This document shows positions 3,583 through 26,920 of a DNA stretch of 64,000 nt, piece by piece. Source of the stretch: Streptomyces sp. SCUT-3 (GTDB lineage Bacteria > Actinomycetota > Actinomycetes > Streptomycetales > Streptomycetaceae). Below the pieces are notes generated by a model. It searched no databases, had not been told where the DNA came from, and worked only from the letters and a program-made list of their open reading frames with translations. The stretch spans positions 5,218,501 through 5,282,500 of the forward strand of contig NZ_CP046907.1 in NCBI RefSeq assembly GCF_014083985.1, written 5' to 3'. Numbering within the stretch: the first letter of the stretch is position 1; the number at the start of each line of letters is the position of its first letter. The translations under genes and the position numbers were made by a program.

Positions 3583-4326
3583 GTGGAGCTCAAGAACATC
3601 CCGGACCCCGGTTTCCCCGACGACGACGGGTCCGCGGACCCGAGGCTCGCCGCCGCCCTGGCGGCCTACGCGAAGGACCGGTCGGCCGAGCGCGAGGTGC
3701 TTGCCGCGCTGCCCGGCGCCAGGCTCCTGATCCCTGTGGTCGCCGTCCTGGGAGAGGTGGAGATCGGCGAGGACGGCCTGCGCCGCGAGAAGACCAGCGA
3801 CATGGCCGTGCCCACGCTCGAGGCGCCCGGCGGCCGCCGCGCCCTGCCCGCCTTCACCTCCACCGACAGCCTGGCCCGCTGGCAGGCCGACGCCCGGCCG
3901 GTGGCGGTCCCGTTCCACCAGGCGCTGCAGGCCCTCGCCCACGAGAAGGCCGACACCCTGCTGATCGACATGGCCGGCCCGGTCACCTACCAGCTCACCG
4001 GGTCCGCCCTGCGGGCGGCGGCCGAGGGGCGCGGGCAGACCGAGGCGGCGGCGGACCCGGCCGTGGCGGAGGCGGTCCGCGCGGCGTGCGCCGCCGAGCC
4101 CGCGGTGCTGAGGGCCCACCTGATGCCGAGCACCCGGTCGGACCTGACGCTCGGGCTGGTCCTCGCCGAGGACGCGGACGTCCGGCAGGTGGGCGGCCGG
4201 CTGGCCGCCGCCCTGTCGGGGGACGAGACGCTGCGCGGCCGGCTGGTGCGCGGCCTGGAGCTCGCCGTCCTGCCGCCCGACGCCCGGGTCCCGGGCGAGC
4301 CCGTCCACACCCGCCGCTCAGTCTGA
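3583..4326 (+). CDS. SseB-family protein
   Basis: This 247-residue soluble protein starts at GTG, with no strong Shine-Dalgarno but a good N-terminus (MELKNIPDPGFPDDDG). The sequence LAAYAKDRSAEREVLAALPGAR, LLIPVVAVLGE and DMAVPTLEAPGGRRALPAFTS matches the SseB N-terminal domain. This small alpha/beta fold is common in actinobacteria next to the infC region; its role outside enterobacterial type III secretion is unknown. The second half (LTLGLVLAEDADVRQVGGRLAAALSG) fits the SseB C-terminal part. It is monocistronic and closed by a GC-rich hairpin shared with the convergent DUF1844 gene. Confidence 0.82.
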   Translation: MELKNIPDPGFPDDDGSADPRLAAALAAYAKDRSAEREVLAALPGARLLIPVVAVLGEVEIGEDGLRREKTSDMAVPTLEAPGGRRALPAFTSTDSLARWQADARPVAVPFHQALQALAHEKADTLLIDMAGPVTYQLTGSALRAAAEGRGQTEAAADPAVAEAVRAACAAEPAVLRAHLMPSTRSDLTLGLVLAEDADVRQVGGRLAAALSGDETLRGRLVRGLELAVLPPDARVPGEPVHTRRSV

Positions 4327-4332
4327 CCCGAC

Positions 4333-4387
4333 GGCCCGCGCCCGCCGGCCCGTCCGGGCCCGTCGATCGGGCGGGCGCGGGCGGGCC
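4333..4387. terminator. GC-rich hairpin between convergent genes
   Basis: The arm 4333-4346 (GGCCCGCGCCCGCC) pairs with 4370-4382 and beyond, with a small bulge and no U-tract. It lies between the ends of the SseB-like and DUF1844 genes and probably serves both. Confidence 0.55.
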
Positions 4388-4423
4388 GCTTCGGTGCCGC
4401 TTTTGTGCCCGCGGGCGGACCCG

Positions 4424-4834
4424 TCAGCCGATGACCGGGCCGGTGTACTTCTCGCCGGGGCCCTGCCCCGGCTCGTCGGGGACGACCGACGCCTCGCGGA
4501 AGGCCAGCTGCAGCGACTTCAGGCCGTCGCGCAGCGGGGCCGCGTGGTAGGAGCCGATCTCGGTGGCTCCGGCGGTGACCAGGCCGGCCAGCGCGGTGAT
4601 GAGCTTGCGGGCCTCGTCGAGGTCCTTGTGGGTGTCGCCCTCCTCGGCGAGGCCGAGGTTGACCGCGGCCGCGCTCATCAGGTGCACGGCGACGGTGGTG
4701 ATCACCTCGACCGCGGGGACGTCCGCGATGTCACGGGCCATCGCGTCGAAGTCCGGCGCGTCCGTCGCCGCGGCGGCCGCGGCCTCGTCGGTGGCGGCGG
4801 AAGCGGGGTCCTGCGGGGGAGTGGCGTCGCTCAT
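4424..4834 (-). CDS. DUF1844 domain protein
   Basis: This 136-residue protein starts at ATG 4834. The N-terminus is acidic and Ala/Thr-rich. The core (DFDAMARDIADVPAVEVITTVAVHLMSAAAVNLGL, given here only as DFDAMARDIADVPAVE and VHLMSAAAVNLGL) is the DUF1844 signature, continuing with DLDEARKLITALAGLV. The short mostly helical domain is widespread in actinobacteria beside infC; its function is unknown. It diverges from infC across a 470-bp gap that carries the infC promoter and leader. Confidence 0.85.
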   Translation of the reverse strand: MSDATPPQDPASAATDEAAAAAATDAPDFDAMARDIADVPAVEVITTVAVHLMSAAAVNLGLAEEGDTHKDLDEARKLITALAGLVTAGATEIGSYHAAPLRDGLKSLQLAFREASVVPDEPGQGPGEKYTGPVIG

Positions 4835-4990
4835 GGCTCTCTTCTTGGTGTCTCGGTGGGGGCGGGACTGCCCCGCCCCAGCCTAGGGCGCCCGCGGGGC
4901 TCCCTCCCCGCGGCCCGGCGGGGGCGGGCGCCGCGCGCACGACCTGCGCGTACGCACGGTGCGGCACGCGGCCGCGCCCGTACGCCGTGT

Positions 4991-5019
4991 TCTGCGCGTG
5001 CCGCCCGTTGCGGTATGCT
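4991..5019 (+). promoter_or_regulatory. Candidate housekeeping promoter for the infC operon
   Basis: TATGCT at 5014-5019 is a good -10; the -35 (TCTGCG/TTCTGC near 4990-4996) is weak at 17-18 bp spacing. It lies about 285 bp upstream of infC, leaving a long leader. The remaining part of the 4835-5000 gap shows no gene. Confidence 0.4.
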
Positions 5020-5305
5020 TGGTGATTGACCGGCCGGCCACTCACGTGCCCGGCCCGCAAGTGGAGGCTCCGATCTCCCACCTGACCGACCGCACAGGTC
5101 GGCGGGTTCCGGTCGACGGCCCCCGTCGCAAGGCGGAGCGGCTGTTCTTGCGCCCCGTGGGAACAACACGGTGGTGCTCCCGGTTGTGAGGAGCCCCGCC
5201 TGTGTCCCGTACGGGGCGTTTTCGCGTCCGGGGTACGGCGGTCACCAGACAGAGACGTTACGCGGCTGTCCGCCAGGCGGCCGTGGGTGCAACCGAGGAG
5301 GCCCC
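5020..5305 (+). promoter_or_regulatory. Long infC leader with attenuator-like hairpin
   Basis: About 285 bases precede infC without a convincing ORF. Near the 3' end, GCCCCG (5193-5198) pairs with CGGGGC (5212-5217), followed by GTTTTCG. This looks like an intrinsic terminator inside the leader and suggests premature termination control of infC-rpmI-rplT. Leader control by L20 or IF3 is known for this operon in other bacteria, but the actinobacterial mechanism is not established. Other complementary segments at 5085-5130 could form alternative structures. Confidence 0.45.
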
Positions 5306-5968
5306 ATCAGCGCCGAGCCCCGCATCAACGACCGGATTCGAGTTCCCGAGGTGCGACTTGTCGGCCCCAGCGGCGAGCAGGTGGGCATCGTTCCCCTTGC
5401 GAAGGCCCTGGAGCTCGCCCAGGAGTACGACCTCGACCTGGTCGAGGTCGCGGCGAACGCCAGGCCGCCGGTCTGCAAGCTCATGGACTACGGCAAGTTC
5501 AAGTACGAGTCGGCCATGAAGGCCCGTGAGGCGCGCAAGAACCAGGCGCACACGGTCATCAAGGAGATGAAGCTCCGGCCGAAGATCGACCCGCACGACT
5601 ACGACACCAAGAAGGGTCACGTCGTCCGGTTCCTCAAGCAGGGCGACAAGGTCAAGATCACGATCATGTTCCGTGGTCGTGAGCAGTCCCGCCCCGAGCT
5701 TGGCTACCGGCTGCTGCAGCGCCTGGCGGAGGACGTGCAGGACCTGGGCTTCGTCGAGTCCAACCCCAAGCAGGACGGCCGGAACATGATCATGGTTCTC
5801 GGCCCCCACAAGAAGAAGACCGAGGCCATGGCCGAGGCCCGTGAGGCGGCTGCCGCCCGCAAGGCGGAGCGCCAGGGTCTGACCGACCGGGGCGAGGCGC
5901 CTGCCGAGCAGGGCGAAGCGCCTGCCGAGCAGCAGGCCGATTCCGAGTCCCAGGCTCCGGCCCAGTAG
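5306..5968 (+). CDS. infC: Translation initiation factor IF-3
   Basis: The 220-residue protein begins at an AUC codon (5306) preceded by GAGGAGG at 5295-5301; the first residues [20 protein letters not shown] match IF-3 N-termini, and no ATG/GTG gives a better fit. The N-domain runs to about residue 80 ([11 protein letters not shown]), then the basic linker, then the C-domain ([31 protein letters not shown]). IF-3 binds 30S and rejects non-canonical starts, so a non-AUG infC start gives autoregulation, as known for the AUU start in E. coli. The C-terminal tail (about residues 180-220) is Ala/Glu/Gln-rich and longer than in enterobacteria. It heads infC-rpmI-rplT. Confidence 0.95.
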
Positions 5969-6076
5969 TGTCCGGGGGCCCGTCCCCCGAACGCGCATCC
6001 CTACCAGAGAGATGGCGCTCCCGCCCGTCGCACGCGAGACGGACGGGAGCGGCACCGACGAGGAGAGTACGGCGAC

Positions 6077-6271
6077 ATGCCGAAGAACAAGACGCACAGC
6101 GGTGCCAGCAAGCGATTCCGCCTGACCGGCTCCGGCAAGGTGGTGCGCCAGCGCGCCGGCCGCCGTCACCTGCTCGAGCACAAGTCCTCGACGCTGACCC
6201 GCCGCCTGGCCGGAACCGTCGAGATGGCCCCGGCCGACGCCAAGAAGATCAAGAAGCTTCTCGGCAAGTGA
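6077..6271 (+). CDS. rpmI: 50S ribosomal protein L35
   Basis: This 64-residue basic protein ([20 protein letters not shown]) is full length for bL35, with the typical KTHSGA and HLLEHKS segments. The ribosome binding site is GACGAGGAG, about 10 bases before the ATG. It is the middle gene of the infC-rpmI-rplT operon, about 108 bp after infC and 100 bp before rplT. The product sits in the large subunit near the exit tunnel region. Confidence 0.97.
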
Positions 6272-6371
6272 CCGTCCGCCCCCGGTGAACCGGGGGCAGG
6301 ACCACGGACCGGGACACAGTCGACACCGGGCCGCGTGAACACCCCCGCGGTCCTTTCCAAGGAGTACACAA

Positions 6372-6758
6372 GTGGCACGCGTCAAGCGGGCAGTCAACGC
6401 CCACAAGAAGCGCCGGGCGATCCTCGAGCAGGCCAGCGGTTACCGCGGCCAGCGCTCCCGCCTGTACCGCAAGGCGAAGGAGCAGGTCACCCACTCCCTC
6501 GTCTACAACTACAACGACCGGAAGAAGCGCAAGGGCGACTTCCGCCAGCTGTGGATCCAGCGGATCAACGCCGCCGCGCGTGCGAACGGCATGACCTACA
6601 ACCGCCTGATCCAGGGCCTGAAGGCCGCCAACATCGAGATCGACCGCAAGATCCTCGCGGACCTCGCGGTCAACGACGCCGGTGCCTTCGCCGCGCTGGT
6701 CGAGGTGGCCCAGAAGGCGCTGCCGAGCGACGTGAACGCCCCGAAGGCCGCTGCCTGA
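6372..6758 (+). CDS. rplT: 50S ribosomal protein L20
   Basis: This 128-residue protein starts at GTG with AAGGAG upstream (6359-6364). [15 protein letters not shown] is the standard bL20 N-terminus, followed by the long basic helix ([17 protein letters not shown]) and globular C-domain ([16 protein letters not shown]). L20 nucleates 50S assembly and represses this operon in several bacteria. It is the last gene before a hairpin terminator. Confidence 0.97.
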
Positions 6759-6801
6759 GTCAGGCGTCCCCGCCGGCCGGCCGCCGTGCCGGCACCCTTT
6801 C

Positions 6802-6838
6802 CCGGACCCGCAGGTGCACCCGTCGCCTGCGGGTCCGG
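6802..6838 (+). terminator. Terminator of infC-rpmI-rplT
   Basis: Perfect 13-bp arms (CCGGACCCGCAGG at 6802-6814 pairing with 6826-6838) flank an 11-base loop, without a U-tract, 43 bp after the rplT stop. Confidence 0.65.
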
Positions 6839-6940
6839 CGCGCTGCCACCCGGCGCCCGGCCCGTCACCCGGCGCCCGGCCCCACCCCACACCCCGGCCC
6901 CACACAGCGGCCCCCCTGCGGAAGCGAGCGAGCGACACCC

Positions 6941-14600: not shown

Positions 14601-16073
14601 ATGAAGTACGACCTTGCGCCGCCCAAAGCAGTGGGCATGGTGGCGTCGCTGAGTTCGCTCGGCTACTCGCTGCCCGATGCCGTCGCGGACCTGGTGGACA
14701 ACAGCGTCTCCGCAGGTGCCAGCACCATCGATGTGGAGTTCACCTGGGAGGGCCCTGAATCATGGGCTGCCATCATCGACGACGGTCGAGGCATGTCCGA
14801 GGACGGGCTGGTCACTGCCATGACGGTGGCTGCACGCTGGTCGGCGAAGGACCGAACCAAGAGGGACCTGGGTCGCTACGGCGTGGGTCTCAAGTCCGCC
14901 TCGTTCTCCCAGTGCCGACTGCTGACGGTTTGCACCGCCGAGAAGGAGGGCCCCTGGACGACGCGTACCTGGGACTTGGATGTGGTCGAGGAGACCGGCG
15001 AGTGGCGACTGCTGCGTGAGCCACCTGCCGAGGCCGGCGCCGTGCTGGAACGGCTCACGCGCAACCGGAGGCACGGCACCGTCGTGCTCTGGCAGCGACT
15101 GAACGGATACCTTCAGGTGTCTGCCGGTGACAAAAAGACCCAGCAGGGCTTCTACGACGAGATCCCGAAGGTGAGCAACCACCTCGGGCTCGTCTTCGCA
15201 CGCTTCCTCACCGGATCCGCGGCCCTGACGCTCCGGGTGGCCGGGGAATCCGTGCAGCCGTGGGACCCGTTTCTGTCGTCCCACCCATCGGTCCGGCGCC
15301 TGCCGGACGAGAAGCTCCCGCTCGACGGTCACTGGGTGAAGGTCAGGCCCTACGTTCTGCCCGGCCTGCAGCGACTCACCCAAGATGAGGCTGAAGGCTC
15401 CGGTGGCCCCAAGGGATGGCTCCGGCAGCAGGGCTTCTACGTGTATCGGCGGGACCGGCTCATCCTGGCAGGCAGCTGGCTCGGAATCCGTGGTCTGCGG
15501 CGCGAGGAGAAATACAACCTCGCTCGTATCGCGATCGACATCCCTGCGGAAACGGACAGCCAGTGGCAGGTCGACGTGCGGAAGGCGGCGGTCGTGCCGC
15601 CCGTCCCGCTGCGCCGGCATCTGGCACGCATCGCTCGGTCGGCGCGTACCGAGGCCGCCGCAACCGTGAAGCACAAAGGCCGCATCTCTGCGAGGCAGCG
15701 GTCCGGCGACCTGCAGTTCGCGTGGAAGGTCAGCCGCGACAACAACACGGTGAACTGTCGGATCAACCGCAACCATCCGCTGGTCCAAGCTGTCCTCCAA
15801 AGCGGTGGAAACGAACCGGCCGATGTCCGTGCTCTGCTGCGCCTGCTTGAGGAAACTGTTCCGGTGTCGGCGTTGCGGGTTCTGCACGAACCCGACACCG
15901 CAGACGACCCGGAGCCCTTCGGCGGCACGGTGAAGGCGACTCCGGAAGCCGTCGAGGTGGCCCAGCGGATGCTCGACATCTTCCTTTCCCAGGGACGGTC
16001 CCGGAGCGACGCTTTGCAGGTCATCCGAACCACCCAGCCCTTCGATCAACTCGAAGGTTTTTGGACCGCCTGA
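14601..16073 (+). CDS. MORC-like GHKL ATPase of a restriction-modification-like system
   Basis: The 490-residue protein starts at ATG 14601 after AGGGGGG. GHKL motifs are complete: N box with Asn34 in DAVADLVDNSVSAGA, G1 in IIDDGRGMSED (residues 58-67), and G2 LGRYGVGLKSAS (90-101). An S5-like second domain has a conserved Lys near residue 330 in WQVDVRKAAVVPP, the arrangement of MutL/Hsp90/MORC ATPases. The C-terminal 130 residues are unassigned. Prokaryotic MORC proteins are predicted to remodel DNA-protein complexes in restriction systems. It leads a four-gene operon; its stop is 68 bp before the Z1 gene start. Codon use is less GC-biased than the flanking core genes, consistent with transfer. 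Confidence 0.88.
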   Translation: MKYDLAPPKAVGMVASLSSLGYSLPDAVADLVDNSVSAGASTIDVEFTWEGPESWAAIIDDGRGMSEDGLVTAMTVAARWSAKDRTKRDLGRYGVGLKSASFSQCRLLTVCTAEKEGPWTTRTWDLDVVEETGEWRLLREPPAEAGAVLERLTRNRRHGTVVLWQRLNGYLQVSAGDKKTQQGFYDEIPKVSNHLGLVFARFLTGSAALTLRVAGESVQPWDPFLSSHPSVRRLPDEKLPLDGHWVKVRPYVLPGLQRLTQDEAEGSGGPKGWLRQQGFYVYRRDRLILAGSWLGIRGLRREEKYNLARIAIDIPAETDSQWQVDVRKAAVVPPVPLRRHLARIARSARTEAAATVKHKGRISARQRSGDLQFAWKVSRDNNTVNCRINRNHPLVQAVLQSGGNEPADVRALLRLLEETVPVSALRVLHEPDTADDPEPFGGTVKATPEAVEVAQRMLDIFLSQGRSRSDALQVIRTTQPFDQLEGFWTA

Positions 16074-16141
16074 CGCCTTGCCGGCGGCGGGGCGTAGCTT
16101 CCCCGCCTGCTGACCGGAAATCTGCCTACATGGAGGCATCT

Positions 16142-18928
16142 GTGGATTCGGTCGTTCGCGACGACATGGCCTACGCGCTGAAGGTTGCGGTCCAGCTGCT
16201 CCCGGAAGACCGGCAGGCCACCTCCGAGGAGGTGACCAAGGCGGTCACCGGCGGAGTGATGGTCGCGAACCTCAACGGCGTTATGGTCGACGCCGCGGAA
16301 CTCCGCAAACTCGTCGAGGCGCGGACGAACGTCTTTCAGGAGAGCTCGGCCGCCCTGAGCGACGACACCGATCACGTCCCGTGGTTGCCGGACGCCAAGA
16401 ACGACCGTCCTTGGCCTTTCTGGCTCCGCTACCAGCGGTATTTGAGCTGGGTCCGCAACATGCCACTGTCGGTAGTACGGAGCATCGACCGCACCACGGA
16501 CGACGTTCTCGGAGCCTTGGAGGACCCCCGGCGCTCCGGAAAGTGGCGGCGTACTGGGCTGGTGATTGGACAGGTTCAGTCGGGCAAGACCGGACAGTTC
16601 ATCGGCCTCGCGGCGAAGGCAGCCGACGCCGGCTACCGGCTCATCGTCGTCTTCGCCGGTATTCACAACGACCTTCGGTCGCAGACCCAGTTGCGGATGG
16701 ACGAGGGCCTGCTCGGCTTCGACACCCAGTACCAGCTGAGGTCCGACCAGGAAGGCGCCAACCGTTACATCGGCGTGGGTGCTCTTTCCGGCGAGGAACG
16801 GTTGGCAGTGGCCTCCCTGACCAACAGCGCGGAGCAGGGCGATTTCGACCAGAAGACCGCCTCCAAGGCGAACCTTCCGATCGGCCACTTCCCCATCGTG
16901 CTCGTGGTCAAGAAGCACCCGAGGATCATCGACCACCTGCGCCGTTGGGTGACCGAGAACCACGGTGTGGAAGGCCTGAAGACCGGGCGGAAGATCGTCC
17001 GGGAGATTCCGCTCTTCGTCATCGATGACGAGGCGGACAACGCGTCCATCAACACCTCCGAGATCGACGACGACCCGACGAAGATCAACGCCTGTATGCG
17101 TGAGCTGTTGAGCAGCTTCGACCGCGCGGCGTACGTCGGCTACACGGCCACGCCGTACGCGAACATCTACATAGACCCCGACGCGAAGAACGATGCTGTC
17201 GGCGAGGACCTCTTCCCCGAGAGCTTCATCCGGACGCTGCCCTCACCCTCCAATTACCTCGGTCCGGAGAGACTGTTCGGGCTGACGGCCTACCGGGAGG
17301 AAGAGGACGACATCGAACCGCTGCCGCTAGTGCGGTACGCGCAGGACACTGCCTCGTGGATCCCTGCCAAGCACAAGTCCGACTACAGGCCGACGGGCAA
17401 TCTGCCGGACAGCCTGGTCGACGCCATCCACTCCTTCGTCCTTGCCTGCGCCACGCGCCGGGCTCGTGGACAGGAGTACGAGCACAACTCGATGCTGGTC
17501 CACGTCACCCGGTTCACCAACGTGCAGCACCATGTGACCGAGCAGGTCGACGACTACGTGCGGATGATGCGGCACAGTCTGCAGGACCGCTACGGCACTT
17601 CCTCGGAGCAGGTCAGGAAGGAACTCCGGGAGTTCTGGGAAAAGGACTTCGAGACGACGACCTCCCACTTCCCCAAGGACGAGGCCCCCAGAGTCGCCTG
17701 GGAACAGGTGGATGCCGAGATCCTGCCGGCCCTCCACAAGATCCAGGTCAAGGCCATCAACGGTGTCGCCAAGGATGCGCTCGACTACTACACGACCCGG
17801 AAGACCGGCCTGTACGTCATCGCCGTTGGCGGCCAGAAGCTGTCCCGCGGCCTGACGCTCGAAGGGCTGTCGATCAGCTACTACCTGCGGTTCGCCAAGA
17901 CCTACGACACCCTGCTGCAGATGGGCCGCTGGTTCGGCTATCGGCCGGGCTACGAGGACTTGTGCCGCCTTTACACGACCGCGGAGCTGGAGTCTGCCTA
18001 TCAGGAGATCACCGAAGCCACCGACGAACTGCGGCGCGAGGTCGAGGAGATGTCCGTCCTCGGCCTCACCCCCCGGCAGTTTGGCCTGAAGGTACGCACG
18101 TCGTCCCTCGGCCTCACCATCACAGCGGCCAACAAAATGCGTCAGGGCACCCGGGTCCGCCTCAGCTACTCTGGAGAACTTGCTGAGACCACCACGTTCC
18201 CCCTGCTCGGCGGCGTTCCGGAGAAGAACTTCCGGACGCTGCAGAGTTTCGCCGAGAAGTTGCTTCAGTACTCGGAACCACAACCGGATCCGGCGAGCGG
18301 AAGCCTTGTCTGGTCCGGCATTCCGGCGGAGACGGTGGCGGCAGGGTTTTTCGACGCCTACAAGGCGGACCCCAATGTGCACCGTATCCGTCCCGACGCC
18401 CTCGCCGGCTATATCCGCCACCATGCCAAGTTCGGGGAGCTGGACCGGTGGACGGTGCGTGTGGTGTCCCGGCGCGAAACCTCCTCGTCGGTCGATGTCG
18501 CTGGTCACCGGATCGGGCCCGTTGTTCGCGCGGCCTCGAAGACCGTCCAGCAGTCCGTTGAGCGGCACGTTGTCAAGCGTGTGCTGAGCCCCAGGGACGA
18601 GGGTCTTGATCTGGACGAGGAGCAGTGGAAGACGGCTCTCGAACGCACCAAGAGGCTGGCCAGGAAGAAGAACGAGACGAAGCGCAACGGTGAGCTCCGG
18701 GATCCTGCGCTGCCCTCCAGTCTGCAGATCCGCATGCAGCGCCGTCTTGACCAGCCCCTCCTTCTGCTGTACGTCATCGAGCCTCCTGATAGCGCCAAGC
18801 TGCAGGTGCCGCTCGTCGGCTTCGCCGCGAGCTTTCCGAAGTCGAACATCGACAGTGCCAAGGAGTACGTGGTCAATCCCACATGGTTCAGTCAGACCGA
18901 CTCCGATGACGCTGAGGAGGACGAGTGA
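16142..18928 (+). CDS. Z1-domain superfamily II helicase-like ATPase
   Basis: The 928-residue protein is read from GTG 16142, which has GGAGG at 16132-16136; an in-frame ATG at 16130 lacks a site. Helicase motifs: Walker A GQVQSGKT (143-150), Walker B VIDDEAD (about 294-299), GYTATPYAN near 331, and the Z1 signature GGQKLSRGLTLEGLSISYYL (about 563-582) with QMGRWFGYRPGY near 593. The Z1 family belongs to SF2 and is found almost only beside MORC-like ATPases, nucleases and methyltransferases. It probably supplies NTP-driven translocation or DNA unwinding. The GTGA overlap with the next gene shows translational coupling. Confidence 0.9.
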   Translation: MDSVVRDDMAYALKVAVQLLPEDRQATSEEVTKAVTGGVMVANLNGVMVDAAELRKLVEARTNVFQESSAALSDDTDHVPWLPDAKNDRPWPFWLRYQRYLSWVRNMPLSVVRSIDRTTDDVLGALEDPRRSGKWRRTGLVIGQVQSGKTGQFIGLAAKAADAGYRLIVVFAGIHNDLRSQTQLRMDEGLLGFDTQYQLRSDQEGANRYIGVGALSGEERLAVASLTNSAEQGDFDQKTASKANLPIGHFPIVLVVKKHPRIIDHLRRWVTENHGVEGLKTGRKIVREIPLFVIDDEADNASINTSEIDDDPTKINACMRELLSSFDRAAYVGYTATPYANIYIDPDAKNDAVGEDLFPESFIRTLPSPSNYLGPERLFGLTAYREEEDDIEPLPLVRYAQDTASWIPAKHKSDYRPTGNLPDSLVDAIHSFVLACATRRARGQEYEHNSMLVHVTRFTNVQHHVTEQVDDYVRMMRHSLQDRYGTSSEQVRKELREFWEKDFETTTSHFPKDEAPRVAWEQVDAEILPALHKIQVKAINGVAKDALDYYTTRKTGLYVIAVGGQKLSRGLTLEGLSISYYLRFAKTYDTLLQMGRWFGYRPGYEDLCRLYTTAELESAYQEITEATDELRREVEEMSVLGLTPRQFGLKVRTSSLGLTITAANKMRQGTRVRLSYSGELAETTTFPLLGGVPEKNFRTLQSFAEKLLQYSEPQPDPASGSLVWSGIPAETVAAGFFDAYKADPNVHRIRPDALAGYIRHHAKFGELDRWTVRVVSRRETSSSVDVAGHRIGPVVRAASKTVQQSVERHVVKRVLSPRDEGLDLDEEQWKTALERTKRLARKKNETKRNGELRDPALPSSLQIRMQRRLDQPLLLLYVIEPPDSAKLQVPLVGFAASFPKSNIDSAKEYVVNPTWFSQTDSDDAEEDE

Positions 18929-19932
18929 TCGACGAAGACCTCTGGCGGAAGCTGGAGATCCCTCAGCAGAGCCGGGGTCGCTCCACCCGCCGCCTGTACC
19001 CGGAGTCGCTCCACGACATCCACATCGGGGTGACACACCCCGGACGGCAGCGCATGCTGTTGGTCCGGGCCGGTGCCCGCGCGGCGGACCGGGTACGCCC
19101 TCTGCTTACCGAACTGCATGAGACGCGGGGGCTGAGTCTCTCCTGCAGTTCGCTCACCGACCGCGAGTTCGAACTGCAGATCTCGCTCACGGCCGGGGAC
19201 CTCCGGGAGGTGTTCACGCCGCTCGCCGAGGACATCGCCCGCACCGCCAAGGACGCGACTCCGGAAACTGTCCTTGAGCAGGCGGTTCGCCGGTACACCC
19301 GCTGGCAGGAGCTGATGCGCAGCGTCGGTACCACAGGTCTGGGCAAGGAAGCGCGGCTGGGGCTCTACGGTGAGCTGCACTACCTACGCCACCACCTCAT
19401 GAAGGTAATGCCTGCCGATGAGGCGGTGGACTCGTGGACCGGGGCCGAGGGCAGCAACCAGGACTTCCAGCTTCCGTCCGCCGTCGCCGTCGAGGTGAAG
19501 GCGACGGCGAAGAAGAACCCTTCCACGGTTCGGGTCACCAGCGAGCGCCAGTTGGACGGCCGCGGTGTCCGACGACTGGTCCTTGCCCGGCTGATTCTGG
19601 ACGAACGCCGGGGCGGGCTGGGCACGAGCCTCAACTCCGTGGTGGCCGGCATCCGGGCTTCGCTGAACATTGCCGCGGTCGCGGCCAGGTTCGAGACCCG
19701 GCTGGCCTGGGCCGGCTACCTCCCCCATCAGCGGGACCTCTACGACGAACCGCGCTACACCGTGCGGCGTACCGACCTGTGGAATGTCGGGGACGGCTTC
19801 CCCCGCATCGTGGAGACGGACCTCCCCGAAGGAGTCGGCAACTGTTCCTACGAAATCAGTGTCAGCGCACTTGAAGAACACCGAACGACGACCGACGAGG
19901 TCATCCGAGCGATCAGAGGTACCGATGGCTGA
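18925..19932 (+). CDS. PD-(D/E)XK motif protein (DUF4420 type), putative nuclease subunit
   Basis: The 335-residue protein starts at GTG 18925 overlapping the Z1 stop and overlaps the next gene by 8 bp. The likely nuclease core is GLYGELHYL (Glu about 150), then Asp about 180 in NQDFQLPS and VAVEVKAT (Glu189-x-Lys191): the E...D...E-x-K pattern of restriction-endonuclease folds. The N-terminal 140 residues are a mixed domain without a recognised motif. The family occurs next to Z1 and AIPR genes in predicted restriction-modification islands, so it is the best candidate for the DNA-cutting subunit here. Confidence 0.8.
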   Translation: MIDEDLWRKLEIPQQSRGRSTRRLYPESLHDIHIGVTHPGRQRMLLVRAGARAADRVRPLLTELHETRGLSLSCSSLTDREFELQISLTAGDLREVFTPLAEDIARTAKDATPETVLEQAVRRYTRWQELMRSVGTTGLGKEARLGLYGELHYLRHHLMKVMPADEAVDSWTGAEGSNQDFQLPSAVAVEVKATAKKNPSTVRVTSERQLDGRGVRRLVLARLILDERRGGLGTSLNSVVAGIRASLNIAAVAARFETRLAWAGYLPHQRDLYDEPRYTVRRTDLWNVGDGFPRIVETDLPEGVGNCSYEISVSALEEHRTTTDEVIRAIRGTDG

Positions 19933-21925
19933 GGCGTCCCTTGCCGACTACGCCCGCACACTCACCAACGAGATACAGACGCGTGCGGAGGCCGACGACG
20001 GCTCCATCCCCAAGACGTTCACCCGATACGTGCTCGAAATCCTGGAAGAGGGCGGGTTCGTCTCCAACACCACCGTTGCCTATCACGACGGACCGGGGGT
20101 GATGATCTTCGGTTACGGATACAGCGACGACGGCACGGTCCTCGACCTGTACACCACTGACTTCAGCCTGACGCCCACGGTCGACAAACTCACCAAGACG
20201 ATCATGGATCGTCAGTACAGGCGGCTGCTCGCCTTCCTCCGCAAAGCCGATTCGATCCAGGACCACTTCGACCCGACGACAGAGATTCACCAGCTCTGCG
20301 AGGGGGTCGGGAAGGCACTCGTCGGTGCCACACGGATCCGGCTCTTCCTCCTCAGCAACTACGAGTCCAGTGCGCGCAGCATGCCGGGACCCCAGGAGTT
20401 CGACGGGCTGCCGGTGGAACACCACCTGTGGGACCTCGGACGGCTGTACCGCCACGAGACTTCCGGCACGGGCGGCGAACCGATCGTCGTCGAGTTCGAC
20501 CCGCCGCTGCCCTGCCTCTCCGTGCAGAGCGATGGGTCGGACCTGTCAGTAGCTCTTGCCGTCGTCCCTGGTCGGCGGCTTGCCGAATTGTACGAGGAAC
20601 ACCGGACCCGGCTGCTCGAGCTCAACGTTCGGGCTTTCCTGCAAGCACGGGGCAAGGTCAACGGCGGCATCCGCAAGACACTGCGCGAGGAGCCCGGCCT
20701 CTTTCTCGCCTATAACAACGGCATCACCGCGACGGCACTGGAAGCGGAGTTCGAGGAGGATGCCAACGGCAACCGGACCGGCATCCGCCGGTTGATCGGC
20801 CTACAGATTGTCAACGGCGGGCAGACCACGGCCACCCTTCACCACGTCCTGACCCGGGACAAGAACGATCTTTCCGGTGTCAGTGTCCAGATGAAACTGA
20901 CCCTGGTCCCCGCCGGCCAGCTCATGGAGATGGTGCCGCGCATCTCCGAGTACTCGAACACGCAGAACAAGGTGACGCTGGTCGACTTCTCCTCCAACGA
21001 CAAGTTCCATGTCGACTTCGAGCGCATCAGCCGCACCTTGTGGGCGCCGTCCGTGGACGGCAGTGGGCCGGACACCCGCTGGTGGTACGAGCGCGCCCGT
21101 GGCTCCTACGCTGTGGAAGAGGCGAAGTACGAGACCCCGGCTGCCAAGAAGAAATTCAAGCTGGCCAACCCGACCGCGAAGCGGTTCACCAAGTCGGACC
21201 TCGCCAAGTACGTGAACCTGTGGAACAGCCTGCCGTACTGGGTGGCCAGGGGCGCGCAGAAGAACTTCGCGGAGTTCCAGATGCGGGTCAAGGAAACCCC
21301 GCCGATCGTCGACGCGGAGTACTGCCGCCGGGTCATCGCCATGGGCATCCTCTTCAAGGAGGTCGACAAGGTCGCCAAGGCCCACGGCGCGGGTAGTCAA
21401 AAGGCCGTCGTGACTGCCTACACCATGGCACGTCTGTGCGAAGCGACGGAACGGCGCATCGACCTGGACCGTATCTGGCGTGAGCAGACAGTGAGTGCGG
21501 CCGTCGTCCAAGCCGTCGACGACCTCTGCTCTCAGGTGAAGGACACCGTCATCCAGGAAGGAAGGCTCGCCACAGAGTGGGGCAAGAATCCACAGTGCTG
21601 GGAGGACGTCCGGGCCATCGACTGGCAGGTCCCGGACGAACTCGCTGCTGAACTCCTCGACCGACCCGTTGGCTTCGCGGTCGATACACAGGAAGAGGAC
21701 GAGGAGCACTTGGCCCGGTTGCAGGAGATCCCGCCCGCCGAATGGCACGCCTTGGCCGACTGGGCGCGCGAAACGCGCCGAATGGAGCTGAAGGAACAGC
21801 AGGCGGCAACTGCTGCGGCCAACAAGCTGGAGACCGGTGCGGAGATCGCTCCCTACCAAGTCCGGCAGGCGCTGGCGGTGTACGAGAAGGCTGTCGAGCT
21901 GGGCTTCGGCCCGGAGGACCGGTAG
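19925..21925 (+). CDS. AIPR (abortive-infection phage-resistance) family protein
   Basis: The 666-residue protein starts at ATG 19925 inside the end of the previous gene. The AIPR core is clear: LELNVRAFLQARGKVNGGIR (231-250), FLAYNNGITATA (260-271) and LIGLQIVNGGQTTATLHH (290-307). Members are linked to phage resistance and accompany Z1/DUF4420 genes; the biochemical activity is not settled. The C-terminal region is helical and charged (EEDEEHLARLQEIPPAEWH). It ends the operon, convergent with the methyltransferase, with a bidirectional hairpin between. Confidence 0.88.
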   Translation: MAEASLADYARTLTNEIQTRAEADDGSIPKTFTRYVLEILEEGGFVSNTTVAYHDGPGVMIFGYGYSDDGTVLDLYTTDFSLTPTVDKLTKTIMDRQYRRLLAFLRKADSIQDHFDPTTEIHQLCEGVGKALVGATRIRLFLLSNYESSARSMPGPQEFDGLPVEHHLWDLGRLYRHETSGTGGEPIVVEFDPPLPCLSVQSDGSDLSVALAVVPGRRLAELYEEHRTRLLELNVRAFLQARGKVNGGIRKTLREEPGLFLAYNNGITATALEAEFEEDANGNRTGIRRLIGLQIVNGGQTTATLHHVLTRDKNDLSGVSVQMKLTLVPAGQLMEMVPRISEYSNTQNKVTLVDFSSNDKFHVDFERISRTLWAPSVDGSGPDTRWWYERARGSYAVEEAKYETPAAKKKFKLANPTAKRFTKSDLAKYVNLWNSLPYWVARGAQKNFAEFQMRVKETPPIVDAEYCRRVIAMGILFKEVDKVAKAHGAGSQKAVVTAYTMARLCEATERRIDLDRIWREQTVSAAVVQAVDDLCSQVKDTVIQEGRLATEWGKNPQCWEDVRAIDWQVPDELAAELLDRPVGFAVDTQEEDEEHLARLQEIPPAEWHALADWARETRRMELKEQQAATAAANKLETGAEIAPYQVRQALAVYEKAVELGFGPEDR

Positions 21926-21938
21926 CAAGCATGACATG

Positions 21939-21974
21939 AGCCTGATCCGGGCGGACCTCTGCCCGGATCAGGCT
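21939..21974. terminator. Bidirectional terminator between AIPR and methyltransferase genes
   Basis: Perfect 14-bp arms (AGCCTGATCCGGGC at 21939-21952, complement at 21961-21974) enclose an 8-base loop, midway between the two convergent stops. Confidence 0.75.
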
Positions 21975-21991: not shown

Positions 21992-23908
21992 TTATTCCGC
22001 CACCAGCTCGTTGTCGTAGGTGGCGGAATACAGGTCCTCGCCCGAGGGCTTGCCCACGCAGTTCTTCCGCAGCGGACACAGTGAGCAGTGGGGATCCTTC
22101 GTCCGGCAGTATTCATTGCCGACCACCCGAAGCGCGGCCATCCGCAGGGAAGCGTTGGTTCCCGCGCCCACCAGGCGGATGAGGTTGATGCGCCCGTCGG
22201 TCAGTCTGTTGGTGCGATCGGCCTCGCTGCCGTTCACGCGGGCGCCCACGCGGAGGACGCCCTGGGTGACGAGCAGCAAATCCTGCTCGCCGAGCAGCAG
22301 GGTGTAGAGGGCCTCTTCGGCCGGCTTGAAGCCGAGGCGCTCCGGGATCTCGTTCTTTCGCTCTTCCCCCCACATGCTCCGCTCGTCCACCAGTGGCTGC
22401 AGACGACTCAGCCTTTCCTTGGCAGCCTGCGTCGGCGCCTGCTTGAGGAGCTGCTCGAACATCCTGCTCGAGATGCTCTTCTTGCCCCTGACCAGCTCCA
22501 TCAGGTCCCCGAGTTCATGAGGCTTGACTCGGCTTGCCGAGAGCAGAGCCACGACCGCGGCCTGGGGGGAGTGCATCTCCGGGCCGGGGTACTGGTACCA
22601 GCCGGCTTCGCGCCGTGAGCTCTCCGCCCAGTCACTCAGTTCGTCACGGACCTGCCGCCAGTGCGGATTGACCCCTCCCGCCTGCTCGGGGGCAGGGGCA
22701 ACCGCCTTGGCCGCAGCCTTTCCCAGGAGCGGCGGAACGGCATTACCGATCTGCCTGAAGGCATCACTGCGCGTCCCGGCGAAGCGGAACCGGTCGGGGA
22801 AGGTCTGGATACGCGCAGCCTCACGGACGGTGAGAGTGCGGTTGTCCTCGGGATGGATGTACCAGTAGCCGTCCTTGGCGATGTGCGCGGTGATGGACCG
22901 GCTTCGTTCGTCCCAGGCCAGCCGCTTGTACTTGTCCGTGAAATTGTCGGCGCGATACCGCTGCAGTTCTTTGGGGATCTGCGAATACAGAGTCTTCGAG
23001 GTCATACCTGAGAAGATTTCCAAGTCGTCCTCGCGGACCCGCCGGGTCATGTGGTCGTGGATGACCCCTTCGGGAGCCTCCTGCCTCATGAGTTCCAGAA
23101 AACTGTTCGGTTCCGCGGGCTGCTGGTAGGGCAGCTCTCGGTCGCCGATGCGCTCACGTGCCACGACCTGGAAACGCGGCAGATCTGAGATGGCCTGCCG
23201 CAGAGTGACACTCTCCTCGTTCTTCGCGTCCCACTCGAAGTGCTCGACATCGTTCCGGGCAAGCAGTATCAGCCGCTTCCGATGCTGGGGAACGCCATGG
23301 TGCCAGGCGTCGACCAGGCGTACCTGGGTCGCGTAGCCGAGGTCCTCCAGTTTCTCCTCGATGATCCGGATCACCGCAAAATCGTCGCCCAGCCCCATGT
23401 CGGGCACGTTCTCCATGAGGACAGCGCGAGGGCGGACCTGGGTTACCACATCGAGATAAGCCAGCCAGAGCTGTTTGCGGTGATCCTGCGGGTCCCGTCC
23501 GTGATTGCGGACCAGGTCACGAATCTTGCTGCGCCCGGCCCGGCTGAAGGGCTGGCAGGGAGGACCTCCGGCCACCAGGTCCACCCGGGCGACGGACAGC
23601 ACATCGACCAGATGGTTCCTGACATGTGGATCCCCGAGGTCCATGTGCAGGCTCAGGCCGGGAAAGTTGCTGGCGTGGGTTTCCAGTGCCCTCTCGTCGA
23701 AGTCGACGCCGGCAGCCATGGTCCAGCCGGCCTCCTGGATCCCCAGGCTCAGACCGCCCGCACCGGTGAAGAGATCGACGGCCAGTCGCTCGCCCTGATG
23801 ACGTTCCACCCACGCGGCGAAGCCGTTCTCGTCGCAATGGTCGGGGTGAGGATCAAGCTTGAGGTAATCCGACCGCTCCAAGGGAACTCCATACGTCCCC
23901 TTTGTCAC
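21992..23908 (-). CDS. C5-cytosine DNA methyltransferase fused to an endonuclease III-like Fe-S domain
   Basis: The 638-residue protein is read from GTG 23908, which has GGAGGG upstream; an in-frame GTG at 23923 has no clear site. Methyltransferase motifs: I VDLFTGAGGLSLG (about 44-56), IV GGPPCQPFS with catalytic Cys118, VI ENVP (166), VIII QHRKRLILLA (208), IX RSITAH and X RQIGNAVPP (about 385). Residues about 405-638 form an extra domain ending in C601-x6-C608-x2-C611-x5-C617, exactly the [4Fe-4S] loop spacing of HhH-GPD glycosylases such as EndoIII/MutY. The catalytic Lys and Asp expected in an active glycosylase are not evident. It probably protects self DNA in the island's system. Confidence 0.88.
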   Translation of the reverse strand: MTKGTYGVPLERSDYLKLDPHPDHCDENGFAAWVERHQGERLAVDLFTGAGGLSLGIQEAGWTMAAGVDFDERALETHASNFPGLSLHMDLGDPHVRNHLVDVLSVARVDLVAGGPPCQPFSRAGRSKIRDLVRNHGRDPQDHRKQLWLAYLDVVTQVRPRAVLMENVPDMGLGDDFAVIRIIEEKLEDLGYATQVRLVDAWHHGVPQHRKRLILLARNDVEHFEWDAKNEESVTLRQAISDLPRFQVVARERIGDRELPYQQPAEPNSFLELMRQEAPEGVIHDHMTRRVREDDLEIFSGMTSKTLYSQIPKELQRYRADNFTDKYKRLAWDERSRSITAHIAKDGYWYIHPEDNRTLTVREAARIQTFPDRFRFAGTRSDAFRQIGNAVPPLLGKAAAKAVAPAPEQAGGVNPHWRQVRDELSDWAESSRREAGWYQYPGPEMHSPQAAVVALLSASRVKPHELGDLMELVRGKKSISSRMFEQLLKQAPTQAAKERLSRLQPLVDERSMWGEERKNEIPERLGFKPAEEALYTLLLGEQDLLLVTQGVLRVGARVNGSEADRTNRLTDGRINLIRLVGAGTNASLRMAALRVVGNEYCRTKDPHCSLCPLRKNCVGKPSGEDLYSATYDNELVAE

Positions 23909-24541
23909 TGCACTGCCCTCCACGCCCCATTAGGCCGACGATCACCAAGGCGGCACGATCGGTCACTCAAGGTGACCGTCCCCACAGGGAAAAACAGTGC
24001 TGTGGTGCAGGCAACTTGTCGGCCCGAACAAGCAGAATCCGCGAGCGGGCTGGAGGCTCCAACCGGAGCCTCGTCTGTCCTCTCGCGGAACTGCGGCCAA
24101 TGATCTCTGAGGTCGACGAGTCTACGCGATTTGCAGGGGTGATCCTCAAGCCTTCGGTTCCCGCAGCGACGCTCGGAGGGCCTTGAGGTCTCGGGTTGGC
24201 TTCGGCCGGCGCGGCCCGGAGAGCACTACGGCGGCCGCCGTCCCCCGGAGTGACCTGCGTGATGACCCGAGTCGTCGCGTGGTCCCGCAGCGGCGCCCAG
24301 GATCGACTCGCGGCTACGGTGCCGAAGAAGAGCGGTGCTGTTGCCCATCGCCTGTACGCGACGGTGATGGCAACGGCCACGCCGGAGGCCACGGCGGCGT
24401 GCATGCTGACTTCCCGTCAGGCCATGGCGGTCATGGTCAGCCGCAATCCCGCGATCATCGCGGCGACCAGGGCGACGATTTTCCGCGGTGTGCCCAGCGC
24501 CAGGAGTCGTGCCGTACCAGCGTCTCCGCGCCGAACTCACC
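23909..24541. other. Gene-free stretch upstream of the methyltransferase
   Basis: About 630 bp with no convincing gene. A weak minus-strand reading (24404 downward, MHAAVASGVAVAITVAYRR) begins like a membrane segment but is not supported by a ribosome binding site or sustained codon bias. It may be the relic of a small membrane-protein gene. A 7-bp-arm inverted repeat (23960-23978) is listed separately. Confidence 0.4.
23960..23978. promoter_or_regulatory. Inverted repeat upstream of the methyltransferase
   Basis: CGGTCAC and GTGACCG are perfect 7-bp arms around TCAAG, about 52 bp upstream of the methyltransferase start. The position fits an operator controlling methyltransferase expression, as with controller proteins or self-binding methyltransferases in R-M systems; no such regulator gene is seen. 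Confidence 0.35.
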
Positions 24542-24571
24542 CAGTGAGGGACTCTGTCGGGGATCTTGAGG
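24542..24571 (+). repeat. Left terminal inverted repeat of the IS
   Basis: 30 bp, exact reverse complement of 26306-26335. Confidence 0.9.
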
Positions 24572-24646
24572 TTCCGCGGACAGGGGTGCCGGCGGTTCGG
24601 GATGCTTCGGCTGGTCCTGTACAGCCCCGTCTTCCCGAGGTGGCCA

Positions 24647-26298
24647 GTGTCCGTTCGTCCCCTGTCCGGCGTGGTGGTGCCCGAGCTCACGGCTCGGACG
24701 GCCCGAGCCGGCAATCCTCGTGGGACCACGGCCATGTGGGTGCGTGACCACCTCGACGGGCTCTGGGACGATGAGGACTTCGTCTCCTGGTATTCGCGCG
24801 ATGGCCGTCCCGGCCTCTCCCCGGCCCAGCCGGCCACCGTGTGCGTGCCGCGGTCTCCTGCTCAACCTCTCCGACCGGCAGGCGGCCGAGGCGGTGCGGT
24901 GCCGGATCGACTTCAAGTACGCCCTCGCGATGGACCTGGACGACCCCGGCTTCCACCACAGCGTGCTCACGGACTTCCGTGACCGTCTCGGCCGGGACGG
25001 CCGCGCCGACCAGCTCCTGTCCCTGGCCCTGGACCGGATACGTGACGCAGGAATGATCGAAGAACGCGGAAGGCAGCGGACCGACTCCACCCAGATTCTG
25101 GCCGCGGCCCGGGAACTCACCCGCCTGGAACTGGTCCTCGAAGCTGTCCGCGCCGCGCTGGAGGAAGCCTCCCGGGACACCCCCGACGTCCTGGACGACC
25201 TGGTGGACGCCGACTGGGCCACCCGTTACGGCAGGCCGGTCCGCCTGCCCGCCCAGCCCAGCCACCCCGTCACCCGGCTCAAGCAGGCCGGAGCGGACGC
25301 CCCCCAACTCCTCCAGAGCCTGCCGCCCCACCGGCGTGGTCCTCGAGCCGGGGCCCTGCGGCAGATCATGGTGCAGAACTTCCTCGTCGACGCCCGCGGT
25401 GCCCTGCGTCCCCGCACCGAGAAGGACGGCCGGCCCAAAGGAGTAGTCCGGATCATCTCGCCCTACGACCCGGACGCCCGCCAGGCCGTCCGGGGCAACA
25501 CCCGCTGGAACGGCTACCTGGTCCACGTCACCGAGACCTGCGACACCGACGCCCGCGTCAACCTGATCACGGACATCGCCACCACCAGCCTCACCCGGGA
25601 CACCCAGGCCCTGCCCGGCATCCACACCCGACTCCGTGACCGCCGACTGCTGCCCGCCCAACACCTGGTCGACGGCGGCTACATCTCCACCGCCCTGCTG
25701 AACGACGCCGCACGCCATCACCGGATCCAGCTCGTCGGACCGGTCAAGGCCGGCGGAGCACGGCAGAAGAAGGAACAGACCGGTTTCACCCGCGACGACT
25801 TCACCATCGACTTCGACCGGCACCAGGTCACCTGCCCCAACGGCCGGACCAGCACCACCTGGGTCGAGGCCCCCGCCATGGCGCCCTGCACAGCCGCCCG
25901 GTTCGCCTCAAGTCAGTGCGACCCCTGCCCGGACCGGCCTGCCTGCACCCGGGGAAAGTCCGCCCGCACCGTGAACTTCCTCCCCCGCCGCCTGCACGAA
26001 CTACAGGCCCGCAACCTCACCGACCCAGCAAGACCCCCACTGGAAACGGCTCTACGCCACCCGGTCCGGCGTCGAAGGCACCATCTGCGAACTCGTCAAC
26101 GCCCACCAAGCCCACCGAAGCCGCTACCACGGCCACCGCAAGACCCACGTCCAACACGTCCTGACCGGCATCGCCATCAACATCGAACGCCTCGCCTCAC
26201 GAACGCACCCCCACCACCCCAGAGGTCTCACAGCGTTCCAGCACTACCTCGACGCACGCGACCTGACCTGGGAATGCTGGTGGCGGCAAGGCAAATGA
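24647..26298 (+). pseudogene. IS1182-family transposase, two frameshifts
   Basis: The reading starts at GTG 24647 after GAGG and runs in one frame through LTARTARAGNPRGTTAMWVR and LWDDEDFVSWYSRDGRPG. It moves to a second frame near 24845 at LLNLSDRQAAEAVRCRIDFK, a conserved IS1182 block (LSDRQAAEAVR). That frame carries the DDE core (RTDSTQILAAAR, DARQAVRGNTRWNGYLVHVT, LVDGGYISTALLND) and the cysteine cluster CDPCPDRPAC. Near 26035 it must shift again to reach DPHWKRLYATRSGVEGTICE, HRKTHVQHVLTGIAINIERL and the stop at 26298. Two shifts make programmed frameshifting unlikely; the copy appears dead. Confidence 0.85.
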
Positions 26299-26305
26299 AC
26301 CAGGC

Positions 26306-26335
26306 CCTCAAGATCCCCGACAGAGTCCCTCACTG
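26306..26335 (-). repeat. Right terminal inverted repeat of the IS
   Basis: 30 bp, exact reverse complement of 24542-24571, 8 bp after the transposase stop. Confidence 0.9.
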
Positions 26336-26338
26336 TCC

Positions 26339-26488
26339 TGCAACGAGATTCATCGCCTCTTCACCACGGTCGCCGTTCAGCCTCTCCACGACATCGCCCA
26401 CCGACTCGGCTGGTCCGACTGGCGACGCCGCCATCAGGAACGATCACGCACCAGTCATTACCGGCGACAAGCCGCAACTCAGAAATGA
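26339..26488 (+). pseudogene. C-terminal remnant of another transposase
   Basis: Just outside the IS, an open frame reads CNEIHRLFTTVAVQPLHDI, then HRLGWSDWRRRHQERSRTSH and YRRQAATQK before a stop at 26488. The WRRRHQ...SHYRRQ tail is typical of C-termini of Streptomyces DDE transposases of IS701-like type. About 49 codons remain; the N-terminal part is missing and no matching piece was found left of the IS. Confidence 0.6.
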
Positions 26489-26491
26489 AGA

Positions 26492-26920
26492 TCATGACGT
26501 TGGGGCGGCCGGGTTGCCGGCCTGGCCCCTCAGGATGCGTTCGAACCAGTCTGCAGTCAGTTCCGCGCATCGACCGGGTGAACCGGCCACGTGGACTGTC
26601 CCCACCACAGACCCCTGAAGGGGAATGTACATCTGGTCGTGGAGTTCGGTGCCGAGCACGCCCTGCCCGTCGAAGAACGCACCGAAGACATGGGAAATGA
26701 CATTGGTTCCCGGCGTCACCGCATAGAGCAGGGCCAGCAGATGCGCGAATCCTGTTTCCTCGGGGCGGAGGATGAGGGTGTCGTCAGGGTCGCACGGCCA
26801 GGTGACGGCTCGCTCGCGTAGTACGGACACGAACCTGCGCCATGCGCCGTCCAGCGTCTCGAATGCGTCCTCGTCAGCTTCCCCGACTGAGAACCAGGGC
26901 ACGTACACGCGGCCGTCCAT
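26492..26920 (-). CDS. Small protein of unknown function at the island edge
   Basis: The 142-residue reading starts at ATG 26920 (MDGRVYVPWFSVGEADEDAF); a longer start at 26968 is possible. I recognise no family. It is acidic, with aromatic-rich segments (VTWPCDPDDTLILRPEE, NVISHVFGAFFDGQGV, DWFERILRGQAG). Codon use is intermediate between island and core genes. It lies between the transposase remnant (4 bp away, convergent) and the chromosomal dehydrogenase, so it may be cargo of the island or a resident gene. Confidence 0.6.
   Translation of the reverse strand: MDGRVYVPWFSVGEADEDAFETLDGAWRRFVSVLRERAVTWPCDPDDTLILRPEETGFAHLLALLYAVTPGTNVISHVFGAFFDGQGVLGTELHDQMYIPLQGSVVGTVHVAGSPGRCAELTADWFERILRGQAGNPAAPTS

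Follow-up and report, generated by a model that had tools for sequence, protein, structure and literature searches.

A cytosine methyltransferase fused to an HhH-GPD-like domain with a predicted iron-sulfur loop and without the usual catalytic residues, encoded in a probable MZA-like defence locus of Streptomyces sp. SCUT-3

The window analyzed here, a stretch of 64,000 nucleotides of Streptomyces sp. SCUT-3, carries a gene encoding a C5 cytosine methyltransferase whose C-terminal part is predicted to adopt the HhH-GPD fold, keeping a four-cysteine [4Fe-4S] loop and lacking the usual catalytic residues of that fold. The fusion of the two parts is obligate and conserved, and the sequence context assigns the protein, as modification enzyme, to a probable MZA-like anti-phage defence locus. 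With a probability of about 0.5, we regard the fused domain as a non-excising Fe-S module derived from a Mig/MutY-type repair enzyme, serving in the reading of DNA or in anchoring to it. The fusion combines known kinds of element (an m5C methyltransferase, an HhH-GPD domain and MZA-like defence) and is new with respect to the literature searched, in whose titles and abstract beginnings no description of a methyltransferase-HhH-GPD fusion was found.

The gene and the parts of its product are as follows; residues are numbered on the 643-aa ORF, in which the start at 23908 used by the first-pass annotation is residue 6, and its cysteines 601, 608, 611 and 617 are 606, 613, 616 and 622.

21992..23923, minus strand: m5C methyltransferase fused to a predicted HhH-GPD [4Fe-4S] domain, 643 aa, GTG start at 23923, stop codon counted in.
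22694..23785, minus strand: C5 cytosine methyltransferase domain, residues 47-410 (Pfam DNA_methylase, PADLOC).
22049..22663, minus strand: predicted HhH-GPD-fold domain, residues 421-625 (AlphaFold2, Foldseek, VIA).
22319..22321, minus strand: A535, at the EndoIII Lys120 / Mig Tyr position with a one-residue uncertainty (joint alignment).
22265..22267, minus strand: T553, at the catalytic-Asp position of EndoIII/MutY/Mig (hhalign and joint alignment).
22250..22252, minus strand: R558, counterpart of the MutY/MUTYH Arg bridging cluster and active site (joint alignment).
22058..22108, minus strand: predicted four-cysteine [4Fe-4S] loop, C606-x6-C613-x2-C616-x5-C622 (motif in 61 of 61 loci).

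The methyltransferase part looks intact and belongs, judging by its motifs, to the C5 cytosine family. Residues 49-407 match Pfam DNA_methylase (E 4.1e-55), the PADLOC scores are 292 bits for MTase_II and 291 bits for DrmMII, and motifs I, IV (PPC), VI (ENV), VIII (QxRxR) and IX-X are present and conserved across the 29 rows of a full-length alignment, made up of the window protein and 28 fused ORFs out of the 64 that the loci contain. The predicted model of the full-length fusion had a pTM of 0.85, and when searched against BFVD it returned mostly methyltransferases, with no recognisable fusion among the 50 matches listed.

The C-terminal 232 aa alone gave no Pfam match even at E 10, and the isolated window domain had no match in PADLOC or PHROGs, so its kinship is visible only by profiles and fold comparison; NCBIfam mutY aligned with residues 555-628 at E 0.0011, under the model's cut-off. 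An AlphaFold2 model of the domain, calculated from a 45-row alignment (the window domain and its counterparts at 44 of 61 loci), had a pLDDT of 84.7 and a pTM of 0.80. The best 47 PDB matches obtained with Foldseek were all MutY/MUTYH, EndoIII or the thymine-DNA glycosylase Mig, and VIA matched the domain to MutY with a Z of 14.4 over 199 residues, to Mig with 11.7 and to EndoIII with 11.4, values to be read against a chance Z of ~13 that is possible for helical models. For that reason the fold claim rests on sequence too: the 45-domain profile compared by hhalign with canonical actinobacterial MutY/Nth gave a probability of 96.6 (E 5e-10), whereas 20 column-shuffled profiles reached a probability of 1.9 at most (E 0.026). 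The cysteine motif was found in 61 of 61 loci, which is the independent figure; the loop was also present in 29/29 loci of a smaller set, in which the cysteine filter applied removed no locus, while its occurrence in 70/70 members of the 70-domain set used below is by construction, since these ORFs were picked by G[NE]AV[AP]P and cysteine patterns. This analysis places the C-terminal part, as a prediction, in the Nth/MutY/Mig branch of HhH-GPD folds with a [4Fe-4S] loop. The first-pass annotation had proposed an EndoIII-like [4Fe-4S] domain; both the HhH-GPD fold and the conservation of C-x6-C-x2-C-x5-C among orthologues were recovered, but the domain lies nearer to the Mig/MutY branch than to EndoIII itself.

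When a 13-row profile including divergent fusions was compared with the PDB, Mig.MthI (1kea) was the best match, covering the whole domain (8.7e-12), followed by MutY (2e-10) and EndoIII (2e-6). Comparable results were obtained when this profile was aligned by hhalign with Mig-like proteins (probability 98.3, E 1e-14, 201 columns), MutY (98.2, 5e-14) and Nth (96.6, 6e-10). In a tree sampling 19 of the 70 fused domains, all 19 fell into a single group (support 100/99), next to the Mig-like rows and separate from the MutY and Nth groups; a protein from Synechococcus (L155) is a long branch there, and its placement is unsafe. By HMM score, with MutY and Nth training sets biased to Actinobacteria, the best family among the 70 fused domains was MutY for 47, Nth for 19 and Mig for 4. 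The PADLOC model termed "Type II nicking endonuclease" (PDLC03398) matched both Mig-like proteins tried as well as the deeper fusions L127 (2.4e-6) and L128 (2.6e-4), with no match for the window domain, L129 or L155. On the profile and tree comparisons, descent from the Mig/MutY branch is likely, be it from Mig or from MutY.

A joint alignment of the 70 fused and 34 canonical domains showed that the catalytic Asp is present in 0/70 of the former and 34/34 of the latter, its column in the fused domains holding G 35, S 18, T 8, N 4 and others 5. Since hhalign also sets T553 on this Asp, the pairing of LVTQG with VDTH that the first-pass annotation had made by eye holds, and so does its remark that the hairpin Lys is not conserved: at that position Lys occurs in 1/70 and Tyr in 0/70 fused domains, against Lys in 21/34 and Tyr in 13/34 canonical ones, Lys being typical of Nth and Tyr of Mig-like proteins and actinobacterial MutY. 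The second Gly of the G-x-G hairpin (G118 of EndoIII) is retained in 0/70 fused domains, with Lys in its place in 55/70, which makes DNA binding through the hairpin doubtful. Two acidic residues are frequent in the fused domains, E536 (56/70), which lies one column past the Lys120 position and is absent from deeper members, and D548 (65/70); they could be relocated catalytic acids. The fused domains also share two conserved, lineage-specific motifs, NRLxxGR and APLRMAAxR, which are missing in canonical enzymes.

The Arg equivalent to R558 is found in 70/70 fused and 34/34 canonical domains, and a second Arg following the Asp position in 70/70 and 33/34, respectively. PMC12000561 describes the MUTYH counterpart of the first Arg, R241, as linking the cluster with the catalytic Asp and contacting the DNA backbone, and MUTYH R241Q/N238S as inactive, with the cluster kept and tight DNA binding. 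Given this role, the Arg pair in 70/70 and the Asp in 0/70, the fused family has retained the bridge where it meets the cluster and lost it at the catalytic end. In the crenarchaeal Sis-HhH-GPD, Ser stands in place of the Asp and Glu in place of the Lys, but the enzyme still removes 1-meA (PMC11754123); since this active enzyme also lacks both residues, degeneracy of the fused domain is likely, short of proof. Thus, of the earlier description "catalytically degenerate", the loss of the usual Asp and Lys/Tyr stands, and inactivity is only likely.

When 394 genomes of the family were searched twice, first for the isolated domain and then for just the methyltransferase part (the latter at an E cut-off of 1e-70), both searches returned the identical 33 genomes. 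A contig scan with exact peptide patterns, taking one genome per species, gave 61 loci, all 61 actinobacterial, and in 60 of them the two parts are fused in one ORF. Decayed copies were also seen, one (L092, among the 61 loci) with methyltransferase, domain, Z1 and GHKL all in fragments, and another on contig C4 of genome G073 with methyltransferase and domain fragmented; two loci each carry two different methyltransferase fusions (L077, 8753-10639 and 13531-15549; L085, 6746-8623 and 8753-10660). The same architecture occurs in deeper relatives (L127-L130) and in a Synechococcus elongatus plasmid protein (L155), from the one cyanobacterium among plasmid records. Inspection of 28 loci (L127-L154) from 43 matched genomes yielded 4 fusions and 24 canonical glycosylases, the Asp being present in 24/24 of the canonical ones. 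A tblastn search of plasmids and phages with the domain found nothing; in a viral collection the domain was present in 2 loci, one of which has AIPR, DUF4420, Z1 and Vsr matches. Over 383 pairs the median dN/dS was 0.30 for the domain and 0.16 for the methyltransferase, with one domain pair at 1.21, and mean pairwise identity was 47% and 72%, respectively. These sequence comparisons indicate that the domain is under purifying selection, weaker than that on the methyltransferase, and evolves faster.

The first-pass annotation made no use of the surroundings of the gene, which in fact place it in an MZA-like defence locus. The neighbouring features are:

14601..16073, plus strand: GHKL (MutL/MORC-like) ATPase, MzaB-like (PADLOC 333 bits; NCBIfam 391 against a cut-off of 850).
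16061..18928, plus strand: Z1-domain protein, MzaC-like (PADLOC 631 bits; NCBIfam 698 against a cut-off of 1500), start probably internal.
18925..19932, plus strand: DUF4420 PD-(D/E)XK nuclease-like protein, MzaD-like (PADLOC 69 bits; NCBIfam 145 against 420).
19925..21925, plus strand: AIPR protein, MzaE-like (PADLOC 258 bits; NCBIfam 344 against a cut-off of 1050), start judged by sequence in an ORF that opens at 19670.
21939..21974: hairpin with 17-nt arms and no T tract, where the AIPR and methyltransferase genes converge.

The fusion gene is convergent (tail to tail) with these four genes, whose products are MzaB, C, D and E homologues in MZA order. None of the NCBIfam equivalog cut-offs for MzaB-E is reached at this locus, so we call it MZA-like only; no MzaA match was found there either. 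The hairpin is possibly a two-way terminator. Upstream of the methyltransferase gene, ~620 bp from its start, lies an insertion sequence (24542-26335) that has perfect inverted repeats of 30 nt at its termini and a DDE transposase ORF listed as 24720-26618.

Of the 61 fusion loci, 49 contain all four MZA-like genes and 8 more have GHKL plus AIPR. DrmA and DrmB are found together in 9/61 loci, one of them (L091) being the source of the DrmA/DrmB queries, and phmmer detected neither in the window; at L078 the fusion occurs with DrmA/DrmB and no GHKL, Z1, DUF4420 or AIPR match within 10 kb. L091 also encodes, at 3725-6880, one long protein consisting of a sigma-70-like (MzaA-like) part and an MzaB-like GHKL part, together with AIPR, the methyltransferase fusion and the DISARM proteins DrmA/DrmB. 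Similarly long GHKL ORFs occur in L069, L084, L085, L087-L089 and L093, most of which have DrmA/DrmB, and a hybrid of MZA and DISARM is possible for this group of loci and L091. In three deeper loci a GHKL ATPase ORF is convergent with the fusion (L175 6679-8049, L176 6630-7928, L177 6520-7794), the one in L175 being a second such ORF besides the MzaB-like gene.

Mig excises T from T:G mismatches arising by 5mC deamination. Ten plasmid regions with Mig-like genes were picked, non-randomly, from the tops of match lists by match and feature names, leaving out L166 (annotated as an A/G-specific adenine glycosylase, with no methyltransferase); in nine of them (L164, L165, L167-L173, but not L174) an m5C methyltransferase lies near the Mig-like gene within the fetched flanks, and the catalytic Asp is intact in 9/9 of these methyltransferase-neighbouring proteins. 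Several are uncharacterised glycosylases encoded beside m5C methyltransferases (L164 3977-4684, L165 3929-4573, L168 and L170-L173), on thermophile, haloarchaeal and proteobacterial plasmids. A homologue of the mismatch endonuclease Vsr is present in 47/61 fusion loci, 40 of which have it less than 250 bp away from the methyltransferase, and in 3/4 deeper loci examined; the window locus has none, the sole Vsr match of that genome being megabases away. That the domain is just a substitute for Vsr is made less likely by the presence of Vsr alongside the fusion in those 47 loci.

With the catalytic residues lost and the iron-sulfur core kept, the domain probably helps to read or hold DNA, not to repair it. 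That the fold, the cysteines of the cluster and the two Arg have been conserved suggests contact with DNA, and the lost hairpin glycine together with the new NRLxxGR and APLRMAAxR motifs suggests an altered contact surface or bound protein partners. An economical history would be that a Mig/MutY-type repair partner was fused once to its m5C methyltransferase, that its excision chemistry lapsed after the fusion, mismatch incision being taken over by Vsr where present, and that the domain was retained as a DNA-contacting module anchoring the methyltransferase on DNA. Alternatively, the domain may serve to flag T:G/5mC sites to Vsr and to the MutL-like and Z1 partner proteins. In an elaboration of this idea that we hold to be unlikely, it would recognise, as a pseudo-glycosylase, the T:G mismatches (or 5mC state) that its own methyltransferase gives rise to, hold the enzyme there without excision and hand over to Vsr and the MutL-like/Z1 proteins; if so, self-marking, mark upkeep and phage-DNA discrimination would be united in one protein.

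Several of these observations can be read otherwise. The loss of the second hairpin glycine from every fused domain, the two lineage-specific motifs, the association of the fusion with two different defence systems and the full-length model with its pTM of 0.85 would also fit a scaffold that docks the methyltransferase to the GHKL/Z1/AIPR or DrmA/DrmB proteins, its Fe-S loop merely stabilising the fold; such a role is possible but on the doubtful side, because the cluster cysteines and the Arg that contacts the DNA backbone in MUTYH are kept, and because L078 carries the fusion with no match to the MZA-like genes within 10 kb, though with DrmA/DrmB. The domain might instead still excise T or another base at methyltransferase-linked sites by means of a different catalytic acid, for which the activity of Sis-HhH-GPD (PMC11754123), the frequent E536 and D548 and the intact Mig-like relatives adjoining methyltransferases could be cited. 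However, E536 misses the Lys120 column by one residue and is not conserved among the deeper members, the Asp column varies without visible constraint, and Vsr is already there in most loci, so that we consider such unorthodox catalysis distinctly unlikely. As for a redox or DNA-charge sensor, in which the cluster would tune methylation or defence by oxidative state, the four conserved cysteines are as well accounted for by a structural cluster, and neither the sequence nor its surroundings give any sign of redox control; we find this highly improbable.

A writer fused to a probably silenced member of the repair family that normally deals with its after-effects offers a rare natural test of what Fe-S clusters and HhH-GPD folds do beyond excision, and the family is a defined protein set for telling DNA reading from catalysis. 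It also adds to MZA-like and DISARM-type defence loci a module unreported in the literature searched.

Among known systems, the passage of PMC9523054 concerned describes a putative system of Z1, PD-(D/E)XK and cytosine methyltransferase genes, to which its type II adds AIPR and MORC-like genes. GHKL, Z1, DUF4420 and AIPR are common to MZA and this MZA-like type II, and the latter includes the cytosine methyltransferase; the glycosylase-like domain seen in the window fusion goes unmentioned in that passage. DISARM class 2 comprises DrmMII with DrmA/DrmB, and the window methyltransferase reaches its 291 bits with DrmMII, but DrmA and DrmB are missing from the window. S. pombe Mag2, an AlkA-like HhH-GPD homologue, differs from the window protein in being eukaryotic and free of a methyltransferase. 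It is recorded as a DNA binder, the title of PDB 4b22 calling it a glycosylase homolog that sculpts DNA at abasic sites, and its VIA Z to the domain is 7.8. Sis-HhH-GPD (PMC11754123) resembles the fused domain in lacking the usual Asp and Lys and in having the cysteines and the Arg pair, but it is free-standing and active through a Glu exactly at the Lys position. MutY/MUTYH, an adenine glycosylase and the best structural match, has the cluster loop and the cluster-linked Arg in common with the window domain, which, however, lacks its catalytic Asp and second hairpin glycine and is joined to a methyltransferase. Mig.MthI, the T/U:G mismatch glycosylase of plasmid pFV1, is a separate protein that keeps the catalytic Asp, whereas the window domain is fused and has lost it; nevertheless, the two share the fold, the Fe-S loop and a full-length profile match, and Mig.MthI is, like the fused domain, the genetic partner of an m5C methyltransferase.
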